Shown here piece by piece: positions 37,703 to 46,551 of a stretch of 46,647 nucleotides of DNA. Made by a program: the position numbers and the translations under genes. Position 1 is the first letter of the stretch. Each line of letters opens with the position of its first letter. Origin of the DNA: Acidimicrobiia bacterium (GTDB taxonomy: Bacteria; Actinomycetota; Acidimicrobiia; IMCC26256; DASPTH01); the NCBI GenBank assembly GCA_040880805.1, contig JBBDHW010000009.1, positions 1-46,647 on the forward strand, written 5' to 3'. The notes below the pieces were generated by a model. That model ran no database searches. It was not told the DNA's origin and saw nothing but the letters and a program-made list of their open reading frames with translations.

Positions 37703-38002
37703 TCAGCGAGCCGACAGCTCGGCCGAGATGCGATCGAGGAGCTGGTCCTGCTCCCCCTCGAGCTCCTGCACCGTCTTGCGCAGCGAGTCCCGGTGCCGCG
37801 CGAGCGCATCGGCGTGACGGCGTGCGTCGCGAGCCTCGACATCGGCCAGGGGGGTCTCGGCCACGAGGGCACGCAGGCGGACGTCGTCTGCCTCCTCCTC
37901 GAGGAACACGAGCTGCTCCTCGGTGACGCCGAGCTCGGCGCGGATGCGCTTGAGCCGTTCGCTGACGTCGACGAGGCGCCGTTGCAGGATCGACTGCGAC
38001 AT
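37703..38002 (-). CDS. Small coiled-coil protein, unknown function
   Basis: 99-aa, highly charged protein dominated by heptad-like Leu/Glu/Arg helices (SERLKRIRAELGVTEEQL, RHRDSLRKTVQELEGEQDQL). No signal peptide or membrane helix. ATG 38002 begins SQSILQRRLVDV. It ends 10 nt before the probable start of the ANTAR regulator, so the two are likely co-transcribed. I do not recognise a characterised family. Confidence 0.7.
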   Translation of the reverse strand: MSQSILQRRLVDVSERLKRIRAELGVTEEQLVFLEEEADDVRLRALVAETPLADVEARDARRHADALARHRDSLRKTVQELEGEQDQLLDRISAELSAR

Positions 38003-38135
38003 GGGCCGGGAGTCTACGACCCGGCCCCGCCACCCGTCGGGCCGCGGACTACCAGCCTTCAGTGGAACCGGCAACTTGGTCGATAGGTGGTCGCGGGCCG
38101 GGCGCCACTGCTTTTCGGAAATGAGAGCGGACGAC

Positions 38136-39173
38136 ATGAACCGGCGACGCCGACGGATGCTCATGGCACTCGTCGTCTTCGCGACGGCCTCGGGCGCGGT
38201 CGCGCCAAATCGGGTGACCGCCGACGATCAGCAGAAGCGCGACGCGCTCTCTCTCGCGCGCGATCGGCTGGAGGCCGCCCGCGCGCAGGCCACCGAGCTC
38301 TCCGACAAGATCTCGGCCGCTCAGTCAGAGCAGGCGAAGCTCGAGGACGAGATCGCCGACGCCGAGCGGACCATCCCCGCACTCAGGGACAGGGCCGACC
38401 TCCTGCGCCTCGCGATGAAGCAGCGGGCGGTCCAGCTGTACGTGGGGCACGACCAGCGGATCGACGCGCTCCTCCAGACCGACAGCGTCGTCGACGGTGC
38501 GCGCGCTGCCCTTCTGACCGGCAGCATCGCCACCCGCGATCGCGATCTCGCGGCGGAACTACGCACGACGGCGCACGAGCTCGAAGCACGCGAGGAGCAG
38601 CTCCGCTCCCGACGAGCCGACCTGGCCCGCACGATCGACAGCTTGGCTCCGCTCCAAGACCTGCTGCAGAAGCGGCTCACGGTCGCCGGCGCCGCGTACG
38701 AGAAGGTGAAGCAAGTGGTCGACGACCAGCGCCGACGCGGCGCGACCTCGGACATACCGACGGGTGCCACGCGATGCCCGGTCGACGGATTCGTCGTCTT
38801 CGCCGACGACTTCGGTGAGCCCCGCCCCGGTGACATGGTGCACGAAGGCATCGACATGCCCGCGGTCACCGACACGCCGGTTGTCGCGGTGGTCGACGGG
38901 ATCGTGCGTCACGACGACGGTGGCCCCGGTGGGCACGGCGCGTGGCTCATCGGCACTGACCAGGTCGCGTACTACTCCGCGCACTTCTCGCACTACGAGG
39001 GCGACGACCGCCTCGTGGCCGCGGGTGACGTCATCGGCTATGTGGGCATGACCGGCGACGCGACCGGTCCGCACCTCCACTTCGAGGTGCATCCCGGTGG
39101 GGGGCCGGCGATCGACGGGTATCCGCTGCTCCTCAGCCTTTGCGCGGAGGAGACCGCCAGGCCACTCGGGTAA
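38136..39173 (+). CDS. Secreted M23-family (LytM) peptidase with N-terminal coiled coil
   Basis: 345-aa envelope protein of the EnvC/NlpD-like layout: signal peptide (RRMLMALVVFATASGAVA), a long coiled coil (about residues 25-200), then a LytM/M23 domain. The zinc ligands appear present: HxxxD in VHEGIDMPAV and HxH in GPHLHFEVHP. M23 enzymes cut peptidoglycan cross-bridges or activate amidases. ATG 38121, in frame 15 nt upstream, is an alternative start. It is divergent from the coiled-coil gene and followed 11 nt later by tRNA-Leu. Confidence 0.87.
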   Translation: MNRRRRRMLMALVVFATASGAVAPNRVTADDQQKRDALSLARDRLEAARAQATELSDKISAAQSEQAKLEDEIADAERTIPALRDRADLLRLAMKQRAVQLYVGHDQRIDALLQTDSVVDGARAALLTGSIATRDRDLAAELRTTAHELEAREEQLRSRRADLARTIDSLAPLQDLLQKRLTVAGAAYEKVKQVVDDQRRRGATSDIPTGATRCPVDGFVVFADDFGEPRPGDMVHEGIDMPAVTDTPVVAVVDGIVRHDDGGPGGHGAWLIGTDQVAYYSAHFSHYEGDDRLVAAGDVIGYVGMTGDATGPHLHFEVHPGGGPAIDGYPLLLSLCAEETARPLG

Positions 39174-39184
39174 CGTCACCGGAG

Positions 39185-39268
39185 GCCCGGGTGGCGCAAT
39201 TGGCTGACGCGAGCGGCTCAAAACCGCTTGTCCTTCGGGACGTGTGGGTTCGAGTCCCACCCCGGGCA
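39185..39268 (+). tRNA. tRNA-Leu (CAA)
   Basis: 84-nt class II tRNA. Acceptor stem GCCCGGG (39185-39191) pairs with CCCGGGC (39261-39267), discriminator A 39268. The anticodon stem AGCGG/CCGCT encloses the loop CTCAAAA with anticodon CAA at 39219-39221. A long variable arm (TGTCC-TTC-GGGACG) and T arm GTGGG-TTCGAGT-CCCAC complete the fold. CCA is not encoded. Confidence 0.95.
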
Positions 39269-39281
39269 CGCGAGCGGCTCA
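39268..39281 (+). repeat. 14-nt duplicate of the tRNA-Leu anticodon-arm sequence
   Basis: ACGCGAGCGGCTCA at 39268-39281, starting at the last base of the tRNA, exactly repeats 39207-39220 (end of the D arm to the anticodon loop). A direct repeat spanning a tRNA and its 3' flank is what integration, excision or slippage at a tRNA can leave. Confidence 0.6.
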
Positions 39282-39318
39282 CCAAGGCGCCACGTCACTG
39301 CAACCTCGGAAGCATCGT

Positions 39319-39585
39319 CTGCACTACTCGGTGATCACACGCGCCGAGCTGCTGGCCGGAACAACGGCGAGCAGCACGATCGCGACGCTGCTCGCGCCGT
39401 CTCGAGAACTCGTCGTAGACCGAGCCGTCGCCGATCGCGCCGGCCGTCTCCGCCGCGAGTCGGACATTCGCCTTCCCGATGCCCTGATCGCGGCAACGGC
39501 GATCGAACACGGGCTCGGCTTGGTCACCCGAAACCGACGCGACTTCGCACCCGTGCGCGGCCTGCGGCTTCGGGCGTTGTCGTAG
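39319..39585 (+). pseudogene. PIN-domain (VapC-type) toxin, 5'-truncated
   Basis: The 88 residues from CTG 39319 match the C-terminal two thirds of a VapC ribonuclease: YSVITRAELLAG, then VDRAVADRAGRLRRE, IRLPDALIAATAIEHGLGLV, TRNRRDF, including the conserved acidic residues of these motifs. The N-terminal strand with the first catalytic Asp (LLDTSVL-like) is absent, and the reading frame upstream runs into the tRNA-Leu gene. No antitoxin precedes it. It is therefore a remnant whose 5' half was lost at the tRNA 3' flank. Confidence 0.7.
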
Positions 39586-39597
39586 CGGACGTCGGGA

Positions 39598-40533
39598 CTA
39601 CGTGGAGAGGCTGCCGTTCTCCAACCAGGCGCGGAGTGCGGGATCGAGCGGCGCGACGACCTGCTCGTACAGCGTGAGGTCTTCTGAAGTGAGCACGTCG
39701 CGCCAACGGCCGTTCGTGCCTTTGAAGAAGAAGGCCTCGGCGCCGCCCTTCCAGAGCATGGGCAGCATCGACCTGCCCGATGAATCGTGTTCGAGGGCTT
39801 CCTGCTTCATCGACTCGAAGCGCGCCCCCTCGACCAGCGACGGCCAGTCGTCTTCCGGGACGTCGATGCCGGTGAACGCGGCCACCCGCCGCATCTGTCC
39901 TTCGAGATCGGCGGTGAGGTCGTTGTAGTGCACCGCCAGCACGTTCGGAAGGTCTCGGAACGGCCAGAACGACTCGGCGTGGTAGTGGTGTGACCAGTAC
40001 GGCCAGCCGTCGCGCTCCCACGGGAAGGACGCGCGCGTCATCCACGGCGCCCAGAACTCGCGCGGGTCCTCGGGACAGCGCGGCAAGGGCCCGCCCTCCG
40101 GGTCGCCGCTGGCGAACATCTCGTATGCCTCGTCCGTGTGCGAGTGGTAGTGGTTGAAGATCGACATGAACACGTCGCGCGTGTCGCGTGCGACCCAGAT
40201 GTACCGGACGTCGGGGTAGTACGGCAGCGCGTCGAGCGGCAGGTGGCTCTTGACGAAGCGCTGGTGCTCTTGTGCCTCGATCCCGGCGATCACGCCGTCG
40301 AGTGGGGTCACGCGAAGGTCGATCCACGGCGACAGCGCACCGAGATCCTCGGTGAGCGGAGCGGCACCGAACACGAGAAGGCTCATGATGCGCTGCATCC
40401 ACGTGGTACCCGACTTGTACGACGTGGAGATGATGACGTCGCCCGCTCGCGGCCGGTAGCTGTCCCAGCGCGTGCTGTCGAGATGGTGGTGGCGGTATGT
40501 GCGTACCCTCTGCGGGAGCTCTGTGCCGGCCAC
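39598..40533 (-). CDS. Sulfotransferase family protein
   Basis: 311-aa cytosolic-type sulfotransferase using PAPS. The 5'-phosphosulfate loop is TSYKSGTTWMQRI, the probable catalytic His lies in KSHLPLDALPYYP, the 3'-phosphate site is VARDTRDVFMSIFNHY, and the late FFFKGTNGRWRD matches the conserved RKGxxGDW-type motif. The acceptor is unknown. GTG 40533 begins 11 nt after the MarR stop, so the regulator and enzyme appear to form an operon. Confidence 0.87.
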   Translation of the reverse strand: MAGTELPQRVRTYRHHHLDSTRWDSYRPRAGDVIISTSYKSGTTWMQRIMSLLVFGAAPLTEDLGALSPWIDLRVTPLDGVIAGIEAQEHQRFVKSHLPLDALPYYPDVRYIWVARDTRDVFMSIFNHYHSHTDEAYEMFASGDPEGGPLPRCPEDPREFWAPWMTRASFPWERDGWPYWSHHYHAESFWPFRDLPNVLAVHYNDLTADLEGQMRRVAAFTGIDVPEDDWPSLVEGARFESMKQEALEHDSSGRSMLPMLWKGGAEAFFFKGTNGRWRDVLTSEDLTLYEQVVAPLDPALRAWLENGSLST

Positions 40534-40544
40534 CGGGGTTCGCG

Positions 40545-41027
40545 CTACGGCGCCGGGGGCTCCACGATGCGGTCGAGCAGGTCGAGCAACTGCCGCTGCT
40601 CATCGGCATCGAGCCGGTCGAACACCGTGCCCCCGGCAAAGACCGCGTCGATGATCTCTTCGCTCAAGTGCACGCCCTTCGGAGTGATCACCAAGCGCTT
40701 GACGCGACGGTCGTCGGCGTCCGCCTGGCGCTCGACGAGGCCGAGGTCTTCCAGTCGGTCGACGAGCGCGGTGAGATTCGAGGGGTCGAGGTACAGGCGC
40801 TCTGCGAGCTCACGCATCGACGACGGTTCGCGCAGCGCGTACAGCGCCCGCACCTGAGTGATCGACATGTCCCACTGGGCTGCCCGGCGCGCGGTGTCTT
40901 GCTTGATGCACTGCACCACGCCGAACAGGGTGGCCGTGAGCGCGCGGGCGAGATCTTCACGCGCCTCGACCGGCATCGCCATGGCCCGCGAGTGTAGTTG
41001 GTCCCCGAGATAGTTGGCGAGTACCAT
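40545..41027 (-). CDS. MarR-family transcriptional regulator
   Basis: 160-aa winged-helix regulator: dimerisation helices at both ends, recognition region MRELAERLYLDPSNLTALVDRLEDLGLVER followed by the wing DADDRRVKRLVITPKG. MarR proteins usually repress their own operon and are released by small ligands. Start ATG 41027 has GGTGAG upstream; ATG 40982 is an alternative, in which case two TAGTTGG direct repeats (40995-41001, 41011-41017) would lie in the promoter as possible operator half-sites. Confidence 0.88.
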   Translation of the reverse strand: MVLANYLGDQLHSRAMAMPVEAREDLARALTATLFGVVQCIKQDTARRAAQWDMSITQVRALYALREPSSMRELAERLYLDPSNLTALVDRLEDLGLVERQADADDRRVKRLVITPKGVHLSEEIIDAVFAGGTVFDRLDADEQRQLLDLLDRIVEPPAP

Positions 41028-41074: not shown

Positions 41075-41530
41075 CTACAGGCCGAGGGTCGACTCCACGC
41101 CCGCGTGACGCTCGATCGTGCGCATCCGAGCGCCCACCACCGCAAGCAGCTTCGGCGCGACCGACGGCATTGCGATCTCGAGCATCTCGTTGAACTCGTG
41201 ACGTCCGAGCACCAGCAGGCTCATCGCGCTCGCCGCGGTGACAGTGGCCACGCGCTCTCCGCCGTCGAGCAGCGCCATCTCCCCGAAGAATCCGCCGGCG
41301 ACAATCCGCCCGACCTCATCACCGTCGATGGTCGCGATCGCGTCGCCGGCAACCACCACGAAGAACTCGAGTCCCGGATCGCCCTCACGTGCCACCTCGG
41401 TGCCGGCCTCGACGGCTCGCGGCTTGGCCATCGCCGCGATCCGCTCGATCTCGCCTTCGTCGCACGCCGAGAACAGCCACACGCCCCGCAGCAGCGCGAT
41501 CCGGTGCTCGAGGTCGACCGTGTCGCTCAT
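41075..41530 (-). CDS. Stand-alone cyclic nucleotide-binding domain protein
   Basis: 151-aa protein consisting of one CAP-ED (cNMP-binding) domain: GDPGLEFFVVVAGDAIATIDG, then the phosphate-binding cassette region GGFFGEMALLDGGERVATVTA, whose Gly-Glu and Arg match ligand-binding positions. No DNA-binding or kinase domain is present, so it probably acts through a partner. ATG 41530 lies 13 nt after the FecR-gene stop; it is the last gene of an operon that includes an adenylate cyclase, which makes cAMP the likely ligand (inference). Confidence 0.85.
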   Translation of the reverse strand: MSDTVDLEHRIALLRGVWLFSACDEGEIERIAAMAKPRAVEAGTEVAREGDPGLEFFVVVAGDAIATIDGDEVGRIVAGGFFGEMALLDGGERVATVTAASAMSLLVLGRHEFNEMLEIAMPSVAPKLLAVVGARMRTIERHAGVESTLGL

Positions 41531-41543
41531 GGTGAGCCGAGGC

Positions 41544-42797
41544 TCATGCCGACGGCCGTCGAGCCCCCCGGCGCATCGAACCCGAGTGGCGACGCCGTGA
41601 GCCGAGCACGAACGCGCTCCCGATGACGACCGCCGCAGCGCCGGCGAGGACGTAGGTGGACGTATGGCTGGAAGCGCCGGTGAATGCAAGGGCGGCCGCG
41701 CCGAGCACGTTGATGACCGCGTTGAGCTCACAGGACGCGCCCCGCACGGTCAGCAAGTGCTGACCGGGTGTGGTGCCCCGCGGGATCGTGATCGTGCCCG
41801 CGAAGCTGCCCGTGCTGTCGGTGGGCAGCGTGCCCACTTGCACACCGTCGAACAGCACGGCGACGGTCTCGCTCGGCTTACAGCCCGAACCGCGGAAGGA
41901 CTCCTGGCCGCCGACCTCGATGTTCGGGTCGTCGACGGTGAGCTCGCCGTCGGGCGGGTACTGCGATATCTCGATGTCGTCGGCCTGGACGACCGGCTCC
42001 GGTGGCGGCGGGGGTGGTGGCGGCGGGACCGGCACGGTCTGCGGCTCCGGGTTCGGAGGGGGCTCGCTCGGGGGCGGCAATTCGGAGAAGCCCCCGAGCT
42101 CGAGGAGGTCGTCGAGGAACAGGTTTCCCGCAATGAAGAGGTTGCCGGTGAGGTCTTCGTACGTGAGCTGCTTCAGTTCGCTGAACTGGCCCTGGTCGAG
42201 CGTGACGTTCGTGGCCGAATCGAGCTGCACCGGCGGGGCGTTGCCGAGCTGCACGGTGATGGGGTCCTTGATGTCGATGAACTGACACGAGACCTGCGTG
42301 CCCAGTTGCGTGCAGATCACGACGAACACGGTGCCCTCGACGGCAGCGGTTGCGCCGCCCGCTTTGATCTCGAACGCCCCGGTCTCGGAGACCTTGGCGG
42401 CGCGGTTGAACGCAGAACCGACCGTCAGCGACCCTTGGGTCTGGCGCGCCCCCTGCTTGTTGGTGAGCTTGGAGATCGAGAACTCGGTACTCGGACCGAG
42501 GCGCGTATAGGAGCCGTCGGTATAGCTGATCTCGGCCAGGCCGGCGACGTCGGTGCGGAGCGCGTCGCCCTGGCGCAACGTCTGGCCGTTCTTCCCGGCC
42601 TTGTAGGAAGGCTTGCCCTTTGCCTTGACCGCGACGTTCGGCGTCCGGATCGTGAGCGTCGCCAGCACGGTCGCGGTGGAGGTGGCCTGCTTCGGCTTCG
42701 CAGGCTTCGCGGCGAGCGCGGGCGAGGCCAACGCGAGCAGGCACACCGATACGCCCAGCAGGGAGAGCGCGGCCTTACCCGCCTGCTTCCCCAGCAC
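41544..42797 (-). CDS. Secreted FecR-domain protein with sortase-like C-terminal tail
   Basis: 417-aa exported protein: signal peptide (ALSLLGVSVCLLALASPALA), FecR domain (LRQGDALRTDVAGLAEISY, TRLGPSTEFSI, AVEGTVFVV), a Pro-rich spacer (nine consecutive Pro), a bacterial Ig-like module, and at about residues 370-374 LAFTG followed by a membrane helix and an Arg-rich tail. That end matches a LAXTG/LPXTG cell-wall sorting signal. GTG 42797 has GGGGGAG upstream; the frame is open to 42878, overlapping the cyclase gene, and GTG 42821 is possible. FecR domains often sense or transmit envelope signals. Confidence 0.82.
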   Translation of the reverse strand: MLGKQAGKAALSLLGVSVCLLALASPALAAKPAKPKQATSTATVLATLTIRTPNVAVKAKGKPSYKAGKNGQTLRQGDALRTDVAGLAEISYTDGSYTRLGPSTEFSISKLTNKQGARQTQGSLTVGSAFNRAAKVSETGAFEIKAGGATAAVEGTVFVVICTQLGTQVSCQFIDIKDPITVQLGNAPPVQLDSATNVTLDQGQFSELKQLTYEDLTGNLFIAGNLFLDDLLELGGFSELPPPSEPPPNPEPQTVPVPPPPPPPPPEPVVQADDIEISQYPPDGELTVDDPNIEVGGQESFRGSGCKPSETVAVLFDGVQVGTLPTDSTGSFAGTITIPRGTTPGQHLLTVRGASCELNAVINVLGAAALAFTGASSHTSTYVLAGAAAVVIGSAFVLGSRRRHSGSMRRGARRPSA

Positions 42798-44745
42798 CGA
42801 CCCGTGCTCCCCCAGGTTCACCGGTTGTCTCACCAGTTGTCTCACCGGGTCCTTCACTGGCCGAGTCCCGCACATCATCTGCGTCGTGTCCTGCCATGGT
42901 GTCGGCTGATTGGGCCAAGTTACCTGAATCAGAAGTCACTACTCGCCACAGTCGCAACTCCCGGCTCACGCCCTTCAGCTCCACGGGGCCGACCGGCTCG
43001 ACCGGCGGGGGCGACGGCACCCGGCGCAACACCTGGTCCGAGAGGATGATCTCGCCGCGGCCGGCCGTGGAGCACAACCGCGCGCCGATGTTCACCGTGT
43101 CGCCGACCACGTCGTACTGGCGGCGACGGCGCCCGCCGAAGTGCGCGGCAACGGCTTCGCCGGTGTTGAGGCCGATACCGAACGACACCTCGGGCGCACC
43201 ACGCTCGAGCAGCTCGCGGTTGAGCTGGGGCGTGAGCTCCTGGATTGCGATCGCGCACTCGAGTGCCTGCGCCGGATGGTCACTGGTCGGGATGGGCGCC
43301 CCCCAGACCGCGAAGACCTCGTCGCCGACGTACTTCATCAATGTGCCGCGCATCGCGAGCACGAGTTCGGTGACCCGGTCGTAGTAGTGGTCGAGCATCA
43401 CGCGGACGGTCGCCGGCGACAGGCTCTCCGACAGCGCGGTGAAACCTCTGAGGTCGCAGAACAACACCGTCATGTCGAGCCGTTGGCCCTCGGCCGCGGT
43501 CTCGGCACGATCCTCGTCGACGAGCCGCTTCGCGACGGTCTCGGGCACGTACTGCGAGAACAGCGCGGTGACACGACGCCGTTGCCGAGTCTCACCGAAG
43601 TACCGGAGGACCACAGCACCGAGGAACGCGAGCGCAACGGCAACGAGCGGGTAGATGATGTTGTTGATGGTGCCCGCGTCGAAGCGCGCGACAACCAGGA
43701 CGAGGCAGCCAAATACGAGCAGGAGTGTGACCACGGGCGAGAGCCACAACGGCAGCATGAGCACGAGCAGCCCGACCAGCATCGTGAGGAGCGCCACCCA
43801 CATCAACGTCGTGGTATCGCTTGCTGTCTGGAGATACGTGCCGGTGAGCATCGTGTTGGCCGCGTTGGCGTGCAGGAACACACCCGGGAGGCGCGACGAC
43901 TTGTTCGTCGGCACGAGCCGGACGTCACCCGACAGTGGATCGGTGGCACCGATGAACACGATCTTGCCCGCGACACGACTCGCATCGAGACTCCCGTCGA
44001 GCACGTCGAGTGCGGAGATCGCGCTCGTGGGCTCGGAGAGCTTGGCGGAGAAGTTGAGCACCATCGACGTCTCGGACCCCGTGGGGATGAAACGGTCCGC
44101 TGCGACGACGCCGCCAGGCCGAACGATCGCCGGTGCTGTGACGCCGCGCAGTTTCATCACCGCAACAAGCGCCAACGCGGGAAGGAAGGCGCCCTTCTTG
44201 GTGTCGAAGACGAGCGAGACGCTCCGAACCACACCGTCGGCGGGATCCTGGTTCACCTGGACATGCCCGATCCCGGCGGCGTTCTCCGCGAACTTGTCGT
44301 ACACATTCGTGCCCTCGAGTGCAAGCGGCGGCCGACCGTTCTTTCCGGAAATCGCGTTGGTCACGCCTTCCCCGAAGACCACGTTGCCCGCCTGCTTCAC
44401 AGCCGCCGCGAAGGCGTCGTCGCCGGCAGGATTGTCCGACTGCTGCGAGAACACGAGGTCGAACACAATGACCGCGGCACCCGCCTGCGACAGACGATCG
44501 GTAAGGTCGGCCATCCGCCCGCGCGGCCAGGGCAGCGGGTCGTCGAAGAAGTTGATCGCCTTGCGGTCGATCCCCACGACCACGACGCGCTTGTCGGTGG
44601 GCGCGCCGGGGAAGAGCGCATCGGTGGCGCGGCGCTGGAAGCCCCCGAGCACCTCGGCCGACAGCCCGGCCCAGGCGATACCGGTGACCACAACGGTGAG
44701 CAGGAGAACCGACACCAAGCGCCGGATCAGCACGTGTCGCTTCAC
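42775..44745 (-). CDS. CHASE2-domain class III adenylate/guanylate cyclase
   Basis: 656-aa membrane sensor enzyme. One N-terminal helix (residues 11-28), an extracytoplasmic CHASE2 domain (about 40-305: VVVVGIDRKAINFF, PWPRGRMADLTDRL, AAVIVFDLVFSQ, PGVFLHANAANTML), three helices (about 312-382), then the cyclase. Catalytic residues look intact: metal Asp in FCDLRGFTALSE (D431) and KYVGDE (D475), substrate Lys K471 and Asp D545 favouring ATP, and transition-state N552/R556. The C-terminal 45 residues are a low-complexity tail with a GETTGETTGE repeat. It starts 10 nt after the protease-like gene and its end overlaps the FecR gene start. Confidence 0.92.
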   Translation of the reverse strand: MKRHVLIRRLVSVLLLTVVVTGIAWAGLSAEVLGGFQRRATDALFPGAPTDKRVVVVGIDRKAINFFDDPLPWPRGRMADLTDRLSQAGAAVIVFDLVFSQQSDNPAGDDAFAAAVKQAGNVVFGEGVTNAISGKNGRPPLALEGTNVYDKFAENAAGIGHVQVNQDPADGVVRSVSLVFDTKKGAFLPALALVAVMKLRGVTAPAIVRPGGVVAADRFIPTGSETSMVLNFSAKLSEPTSAISALDVLDGSLDASRVAGKIVFIGATDPLSGDVRLVPTNKSSRLPGVFLHANAANTMLTGTYLQTASDTTTLMWVALLTMLVGLLVLMLPLWLSPVVTLLLVFGCLVLVVARFDAGTINNIIYPLVAVALAFLGAVVLRYFGETRQRRRVTALFSQYVPETVAKRLVDEDRAETAAEGQRLDMTVLFCDLRGFTALSESLSPATVRVMLDHYYDRVTELVLAMRGTLMKYVGDEVFAVWGAPIPTSDHPAQALECAIAIQELTPQLNRELLERGAPEVSFGIGLNTGEAVAAHFGGRRRRQYDVVGDTVNIGARLCSTAGRGEIILSDQVLRRVPSPPPVEPVGPVELKGVSRELRLWRVVTSDSGNLAQSADTMAGHDADDVRDSASEGPGETTGETTGEPGGARVGAGEAGG

Positions 44746-44755
44746 TCGCGCGACC

Positions 44756-46156
44756 TTAGGGCTCGCGGCTTCTGGGATTGGTCCGCCCGCCCCGCGGTCC
44801 CTGTGGGCGGAACACGGCGGTCACCGCCGGACGCTTCGCGCTGAGCGAGACCGCGATGGTGCACGTGAGCTTCGTACCGGCGCAGAGACCACGCCAACCA
44901 GCGAAGCGCGCGCCCGGCCCCGGAGTCGCCACGACACGAACTTGCGAGCCCGGAATCAGGTCCCACGAGCAGTTCCCCTGACACGGCCCGCCCTCTAGCC
45001 GGGAGATGCTCCCTTGGCCAACAGCCGACGCAACGAGCTTCACGGCAGGGCCGAAGGTCGCGGTGACCGTCGTGCCGTCCTCGTTCACGGTCGTGTCGCA
45101 GGAGTCGCTGCTCCCGGAGCACGCCCCACCCCACCTGAGGAGTCGATAGCCCGCCTGCACCACCGCTATGAGCCGCACCGGAGTTCCGCCGTCGTAGCGC
45201 TGCGCGCACTCGTCCGGGCACACCCTCAGGAAGGGAGCGATCGAGACCTGGCCTCCGGGCCCTGCGGCTACCACCGAGAGCACACCCGGGGGGCTCTCCA
45301 GGTGCATGAGCCAGGGCGAATCGCGCACGTCCCACCATGTGCCGGGATGGTGGTAGTAGTCGTCGTTCCCCACGTCGAGGGTCGAATCCGACAGCCGCGG
45401 TCCCGGGTGGATGGACCCGGTGGAGAGGATGTCCGCGGTGCTCTCGCACACGTGCCCGCGGTCCTCGCACGCGTTCGGCGCTCCTCCGGCAGTGAAGAAG
45501 TCGTTGAACGCGTGGATGAGCTCGTGGGCCACGGTACGCGCGGGCCACCCGTTGCCGGCGCCGTATCCGCCGACCGCGCACCCCGAGGCACCCTGCAGGA
45601 AGACAAACGAGACCAACCGGGGCCCACCGCGCACCGAGCTGCTCGCCGACCGACCGCAGAAGTTCTCGGGTGCCGGACCGTCGTAGAACACGAGGTACTT
45701 CTTCGTCGCATCCGTGAAACCGGCGTTCATGAGGTCGTCACCGACCGAGTCTGCGAGGTCGACTCCGTTCTCGACGTCGAGCGCGCTGCTGTCCTGAGTG
45801 AGCGCGAGGCTCGACAGGTCGAGCGCGCCGAATTCCGAGTCGCAGCCGGCGAAATCCGCGAAGTCGAAGCGGGGAGCGCGAGCGGGATCCTGCGATCGCC
45901 ACCACGTGTCGACACCCGCCAGGTCGCGGACGATCGCCCGCGACAGGTCCCCGAATCGGTCAGCGGTGTCGGTCGGGTAGGCGTAGATCACGTGGACCTG
46001 CCTCGGCGCCACGACATCAGGACGATCGCCCGCGAGCTCGCCGGGGCCACACCAGCCACCCGGGAGCGGTGCCGCGGCGGCGTGCGGGATCGGAACGAGC
46101 AGGCATGTGACGGCGGTCACGAGGGCGAGAGCCAGGCGTCGCTTCGTCTCCACCAC
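44756..46156 (-). CDS. Secreted metalloprotease-like protein with InlB-type repeats
   Basis: 466-aa exported protein. A signal peptide (LALALVTAVTCLLVPIPHAAAA) precedes a domain with many Cys and a zincin-like HExxH in TVAHELIHAFNDF (about residue 215), with later possible ligands. From about residue 310 there are two divergent InlB B-repeat modules (GGQVSIAPFLRVCPDECAQRYDGG, cut short here; QVRVVATPGPGARFAGWRG), which are extracellular binding domains. GTG 46156 or 46153 is the start. It is the first gene of the operon with the CHASE2 cyclase. The protease assignment rests on the HExxH motif and secretion only. Confidence 0.78.
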   Translation of the reverse strand: MVETKRRLALALVTAVTCLLVPIPHAAAAPLPGGWCGPGELAGDRPDVVAPRQVHVIYAYPTDTADRFGDLSRAIVRDLAGVDTWWRSQDPARAPRFDFADFAGCDSEFGALDLSSLALTQDSSALDVENGVDLADSVGDDLMNAGFTDATKKYLVFYDGPAPENFCGRSASSSVRGGPRLVSFVFLQGASGCAVGGYGAGNGWPARTVAHELIHAFNDFFTAGGAPNACEDRGHVCESTADILSTGSIHPGPRLSDSTLDVGNDDYYHHPGTWWDVRDSPWLMHLESPPGVLSVVAAGPGGQVSIAPFLRVCPDECAQRYDGGTPVRLIAVVQAGYRLLRWGGACSGSSDSCDTTVNEDGTTVTATFGPAVKLVASAVGQGSISRLEGGPCQGNCSWDLIPGSQVRVVATPGPGARFAGWRGLCAGTKLTCTIAVSLSAKRPAVTAVFRPQGPRGGRTNPRSREP

Positions 46157-46227: not shown

Positions 46228-46551
46228 ATGCGGAGGATGTCCGCTCCCCTCGCGCTCGAGTTCACCACCACAGTGCTCGTGATCATTGCGATCGCGTCGG
46301 TGCTCATCCTGGTGCTCATCGTCGTCGCGCCGTGGCGACGCGTCCGCGAGGAGCCTCCGCTCGATCCTGACGTCGAGACGCGGTTGCTCCTCCACCGTCC
46401 CAACCCCGAAGAGGAGACGGGCGAGATTCCCACGGGGCGCGTCACCGATCTCACCGACGCCGGTGAACCGGCCAATGATCGTGCCAATGATCGTGCAGGC
46501 GGCGAGCCCGAATCGGGAGACTTCGCCGAGCTCCACGACCTCGACGACTAG
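46228..46551 (+). CDS. Small single-span membrane protein, unknown function
   Basis: 107-aa protein with one strongly hydrophobic helix (TTTVLVIIAIASVLILVLIVV) followed by a basic patch (PWRRVR) and an acidic soluble tail of about 65 residues that includes a 4-residue tandem repeat (NDRANDRA). ATG 46228 is used; ATG 46237 is possible but has its GGAGG directly abutting. Divergent from the protease-like gene (71 nt). No family recognised. Confidence 0.65.
   Translation: MRRMSAPLALEFTTTVLVIIAIASVLILVLIVVAPWRRVREEPPLDPDVETRLLLHRPNPEEETGEIPTGRVTDLTDAGEPANDRANDRAGGEPESGDFAELHDLDD

Follow-up and report, generated by a model that had tools for sequence, protein, structure and literature searches.

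A gene cluster of Campylobacterota combines a CHASE2 adenylate cyclase with a FecR protein, a phosphodiesterase, and a TPR protein (PMC9239204), and in S. meliloti CHASE2 cyclases relay a signal from the outer surface to the CRP-family regulator Clr (PMC13001267). The sensing target of CHASE2 has been described as unknown (PMC5192318). The window analyzed here, a 46,647-nucleotide stretch of an Acidimicrobiia genome (G000), encodes side by side an exported HExxH protein with InlB repeats, a CHASE2 class III cyclase, an exported FecR protein with a C-terminal tail, and a lone CNB protein; these protein types, named in the original prediction, were all confirmed. With moderate confidence, we interpret the operon as a FecR–CHASE2 adenylate cyclase sensor with a local CNB receptor, and we hold its core, the FecR–CHASE2 pair alone, with high confidence.

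All four ORFs were confirmed at the positions given for them on the minus strand, running from 46156 to 41075, and the junctions were as described earlier, with 10 nt between the first two genes, an overlap between the second and third, and 13 nt before the last. The gene for the HExxH protein (44756..46156; 466 aa, GTG start) was followed after the 10-nt gap by the CHASE2 cyclase gene (42775..44745; 656 aa, GTG start), the FecR gene (41544..42797), and, after the 13-nt gap, the lone CNB gene (41075..41530; 151 aa). A search of relatives found homologs elsewhere for every one of the four ORFs, and all four are therefore supported as coding. The FecR gene could start at GTG 42797 or at ATG 42878, the latter giving a reading of 444 aa. 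The GTG codon is the likelier start, because a Shine-Dalgarno-like sequence, GGGGGAG, was present upstream at a fitting distance and because this reading overlaps the end of the cyclase gene, including its stop, by 23 nt as compared with 104 nt for the ATG codon. A divergent gene for a 107-aa membrane protein started at 46228. The module had been thought to end at 41075, but the same-strand run goes on through two genes omitted earlier, one for a MarR-family regulator (40545..41027, minus strand; PF12802, 1.7e-13), 47 nt downstream of the CNB gene, and one for a sulfotransferase (39598..40533, minus strand; PF00685, 2.7e-36), 11 nt past the MarR gene. The MarR gene is a possible extension of the operon, with uncertain membership, and the sulfotransferase is probably outside the signalling unit. 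Two terminator-like sites were seen, a number equal to chance, with none above chance between the CNB and MarR genes, and a sigma-70 promoter scan found no promoter. Beyond the sulfotransferase gene, an island-like spot at 39185-39585 contained a tRNA gene (Rfam, 52.5 bits) and then a PIN-domain toxin-like ORF (39244-39585); an M23 peptidase gene (37923-39173) lay just before it.

The cyclase joined an external CHASE2 domain (PF05226, 6.2e-47, 160.8 bits), transmembrane segments, and a class III cyclase domain (Guanylate_cyc, PF00211, 6.7e-22, 78.4 bits) in one membrane protein. Its catalytic residues, which had been predicted to be intact, were complete, with all six of the expected positions present: the metal-binding pair D431 and D475, the adenine-type pair K471 and D545, and the transition-state residues N552 and R556. 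From these residues, the product is predicted to be cAMP, not cGMP. That the enzyme instead yields cGMP or is inactive, so that the CNB protein would not serve as its receptor, seems very improbable to us: the window cyclase keeps both the adenine-type and the metal-binding residues, and its closest relatives among solved structures in the PDB were adenylate cyclases, although the absence of the base-specifying Asp in 3 of the 8 aligned cyclases of its group means that specificity may drift within the group. In one ortholog of the CHASE2 cyclase (L033:8374-9915, G042:C6), an in-frame TGA indicated either a broken gene or an assembly error.

The FecR protein matched PF04773 (1e-10; 42.3 bits against a gathering score of 24) and consisted of an exported chain with a proline-rich linker, an Ig-like stretch, and a C-terminal sorting signal. 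Its gene adjoined that of a CHASE2 cyclase in G000, G054, G058, and G281, and probably also in G143, in which the contig end truncates a gene with a FecR-like C-terminal part. Among 61 genomes sampled from the order and class, including G000, CHASE2 occurred in 8 and FecR in 9, the FecR genes of G035 and G042 being scored by homology to the window protein. FecR was present in 7 of the 8 CHASE2 genomes as compared with 2 of the 53 others (7/1/2/51; p=6e-7); the association held without G000 (p=4e-6) and when counted by genus (p=6e-5), a procedure that takes away only part of the relatedness among genomes. The counts include genomes in which the two genes are unlinked, as in family f12, in which the cyclase has no FecR neighbour. 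Both genes were present in G035 and both absent from G039 of the same genus; likewise both occurred in G054 and neither in the same-genus genomes G052 and G027. FecR and CHASE2 have been gained or lost jointly within a genus. Across many phyla, a FecR gene was found in the flanks of 20 of 86 CHASE2-cyclase loci, at a distance of up to 2.4 kb in 19 of them, the loci being the best matches of one capped scan together with relatives, not a random sample. When 17 of the flank proteins were tested with Pfam, all matched FecR, 15 of them above the curated cut-off. In G355, G191, and G004, the exported proteins whose genes precede that of the cyclase gave no match to our own FecR profile, even with filters off. 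Because of the adjacency, the flank counts, and the co-occurrence, we conclude that FecR and CHASE2 form a genuine unit that is widespread; the pairing foreseen in the original prediction is thus borne out by these data and by the Campylobacterota cluster (PMC9239204). The co-occurrence suggests that CHASE2 often has a FecR protein as its partner, also where the genes are unlinked, in an actinobacterial class in which both are rare.

Classical FecR has the topology of an inner-membrane anti-sigma protein. It is extremely unlikely that the window FecR is such an anti-sigma or iron-uptake regulator with the cyclase as an incidental neighbour. The family takes its name from a regulator of this kind, and in G042 of family f12 an ORF judged by eye to be sigma-like comes after a FecR gene that is not linked to the cyclase (L056:2901-3476). 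Against this, the window operon is without a sigma factor or TonB-receptor gene, FecR co-occurs with CHASE2 across genomes, and the topology differs from the classical one, the protein being exported and ending in a wall signal. Assignment to the classical anti-sigma class, defined by an adjacent ECF sigma factor and a cytosolic N-terminal anti-sigma part, was rejected for the exported product of an operon with no sigma gene. Loci L053, L056, and L062 had a common upstream gene ending in NPNEGLLLERLVL.

The tail had been predicted to resemble a wall-sorting signal, and several observations supported this. An LAFTG motif (41676..41690, minus strand; residues 397-401 of the 444-aa reading) came before a hydrophobic helix and RRR, and the tail scored 17.7 bits with TIGR01167 against a cut-off of 15.9. 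The single sortase match in G000 (G000:C19) was of class E (NF033747, 186.9 against a curated cut-off of 160), and LAXTG signals mark substrates of class E sortases (PMC5148588). The FecR protein has the complete set of features of such a substrate, namely LAXTG, a hydrophobic stretch, a positive tail, and a class E sortase encoded by the same genome, and is probably anchored to the wall by this enzyme through LAFTG. A second protein with an LAXTG-like tail (G000:C22, L195:2622-3314) is a probable further substrate of the same sortase. The sorting motif was unique to the window FecR; elsewhere in the class, the exported proteins encoded next to a CHASE2 cyclase, whether FecR or not, had lipobox-like signals. 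Attachment to the surface or wall may be a common feature of CHASE2-linked exported proteins, and the sortase-type tail suggests that what matters is such attachment rather than an outer-membrane location.

The CNB protein matched PF00027 (Pfam, 2.7e-15), and its top PDB relative was a protein kinase A chain (1.6e-23). As predicted, it had no output domain. It carried a canonical, PKA-like cAMP-pocket motif, the phosphate-binding cassette FGEMALLDGGERVATV with E84 and R93, from which it would be expected to bind cAMP in vivo. The cAMP pool of G000 is probably shared, because the genome had further cyclase matches and seven CNB matches in all. Proteins with a CNB domain were found beside other CHASE2 cyclases: CRP-type proteins in G054, G355, and L160, a CNB-rhodanese in L161 and L164, a protein with a CNB and an NAD(P)/FAD-type domain at 3.9 kb in L112, and a lone CNB protein in G355. 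The CNB-rhodanese genes (L161:5480-6586 and L164:2385-3485), which occurred in proteobacterial loci, encode a possible cAMP-controlled sulfur-transfer effector. The literature searched did not contain a stand-alone CNB protein combined with an adenylate cyclase in Actinobacteria.

The HExxH protein consisted of a signal peptide, a metzincin-like domain, and two C-terminal InlB-B repeats (Flg_new_2, 1.1e-16); neither a lipobox nor a sorting motif was found in it. Its N-terminal half had no Pfam or NCBIfam match, and the whole protein had no sequence match in the PDB. The motif residues were H211-E212-L-I-H215, a conserved G-H235, D242, and LDxGxDDYY. When 396 genomes of the phylum were searched, the family was recovered, and an alignment of window positions 45275-46156 with loci L040, L199, and L211-L222 showed conservation of C167, E212, H215, H235, D242, D261, D266, and Y267. 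The aligned proteins form a phylum-wide exported family with the signature HExxH...GH...LDxGRDDYY. Because H211 was replaced by Gln in 2 of the 12 members, some members of the family may be inactive. An alignment-based AF2 model reached a pLDDT of 78 and a pTM of 0.80, as compared with a pLDDT of 31 for the single-sequence model. Its Foldseek matches were mostly metzincins (best E 8e-5), with modest query TM-scores of 0.3-0.46, so that the model combined a metzincin-like fold with HExxH, in support of the proposed surface protease candidate. The HExxHxxGxxH/D spacing and the Met-turn were absent from the protein, H235 being the candidate third ligand and the turn reading D-I-L, and we therefore call it only metzincin-like. 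No homologs of the protease were found in viral contigs.

The original prediction described the four genes as one module and made conservation of their order in relatives its test. None of the 60 relatives of the order and class had this order, which on those terms refutes the module as a unit. Nor were the protease and CNB homologs conserved together with the cyclase: close protease homologs were not found near CHASE2 cyclases, the closest relative in the order (G045) lying among unrelated neighbours, the CNB orthologs (60-62%) likewise stood apart from these cyclases, with two in genomes lacking CHASE2, and across the 61 genomes neither the protease homologs (p=1) nor the CNB orthologs (p=0.32) co-occurred with CHASE2. 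These results speak for a reading in which only the FecR–CHASE2 pair is functional, while the CNB protein draws on the cell's general pool of cAMP and the metzincin-like protein takes no part, both having entered the operon by chance or for shared expression; lone CNB proteins are common, with seven matches in G000 and matches in 58 of the 61 genomes, which points the same way. We regard it as a substantial possibility, if a less probable one than a local receptor, in view of the 10- and 13-nt gaps on one shared strand, the chance of only about 0.8% that any of the seven CNB genes would lie within 2 kb of the cyclase, and the nearest parallel, in G355 of the same class, whose CHASE2 cyclase gene shares a tightly spaced run with genes for a GAF-S8 protease and a lone CNB protein. 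This locus (L208:4783-9942, G355:C39) encodes on one strand a GAF-S8 subtilase, after a 13-nt gap a lone CNB protein, an exported lipoprotein, and after a 1-nt gap the CHASE2 cyclase. It shares with the window a protease, a lone CNB protein, an exported protein, and a CHASE2 cyclase in one run, whereas the gene order is different, the protease has no evident signal peptide, the lipoprotein is not FecR by Pfam, and a convergent CRP gene follows. The two lone CNB proteins were only 32% identical, and the G355 run therefore looks like an independent assembly or an old one that has changed much. The parallel is suggestive of a meaningful operon composition without establishing it; the four-gene combination and the wall anchoring of FecR look local to the lineage of the window.

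For the sensor with a local CNB receptor, the gene packing, domains, key residues, sorting motif with its sortase, and FecR–CHASE2 linkage and co-occurrence are read from sequence, and they suggest the following mechanism. A wall-anchored FecR protein would lie outside the cell next to the CHASE2 domain and, by a contact that we infer, set the activity of the cytosolic cyclase. The cAMP that the enzyme would make would be bound by the co-transcribed CNB protein, which, since it has no output domain, would exert its effect by contacting a partner protein, perhaps in feedback on the cyclase. The metzincin-like protein, as a lineage-specific addition, could shorten the anchored FecR protein, or trim some other substrate at the surface, and in this way provide input to the sensor, which would give the complete outside-to-inside path of the original prediction. 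A more elaborate version is a Gram-positive wall sensor, in which the sortase-E-anchored FecR tethers the wall to CHASE2, the protease releases or remodels FecR, and the lone CNB protein is a dedicated reader of cAMP; we consider this version unlikely. If it were true, the anchoring of FecR, whether by LysM, as a lipoprotein, or by a sortase signal, would be an exchangeable part of a general FecR–CHASE2 sensor.

Among described systems, the Campylobacterota cluster likewise groups the genes for a CHASE2 adenylate cyclase and an exported protein with a FecR domain, but in a Gram-negative envelope and with a phosphodiesterase and TPR protein (PMC9239204), where the operon in the window has a metzincin-like protein, a lone CNB protein, and a FecR tail of the sortase type. 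In the BiofilmReg operon of Burkholderia, a wall-associated FecR-domain protein with LysM is encoded directly beside a CHASE2 membrane sensor, whereas the output there runs through a histidine kinase and a response regulator instead of a cyclase (PMC5192318). The CyaD1/CyaD2/CyaK–NsrA–Clr pathway of S. meliloti also leads from an extracellular signal through CHASE2 cyclases and cAMP to a CNB protein, and differs in its beta-barrel surface partner and in a receptor that is a CRP-type transcription factor (PMC13001267, PMC5498481). The FecR–CHASE2 pair is therefore already known elsewhere, and the four-gene combination and the sortase-type tail of FecR are a new variation on it.
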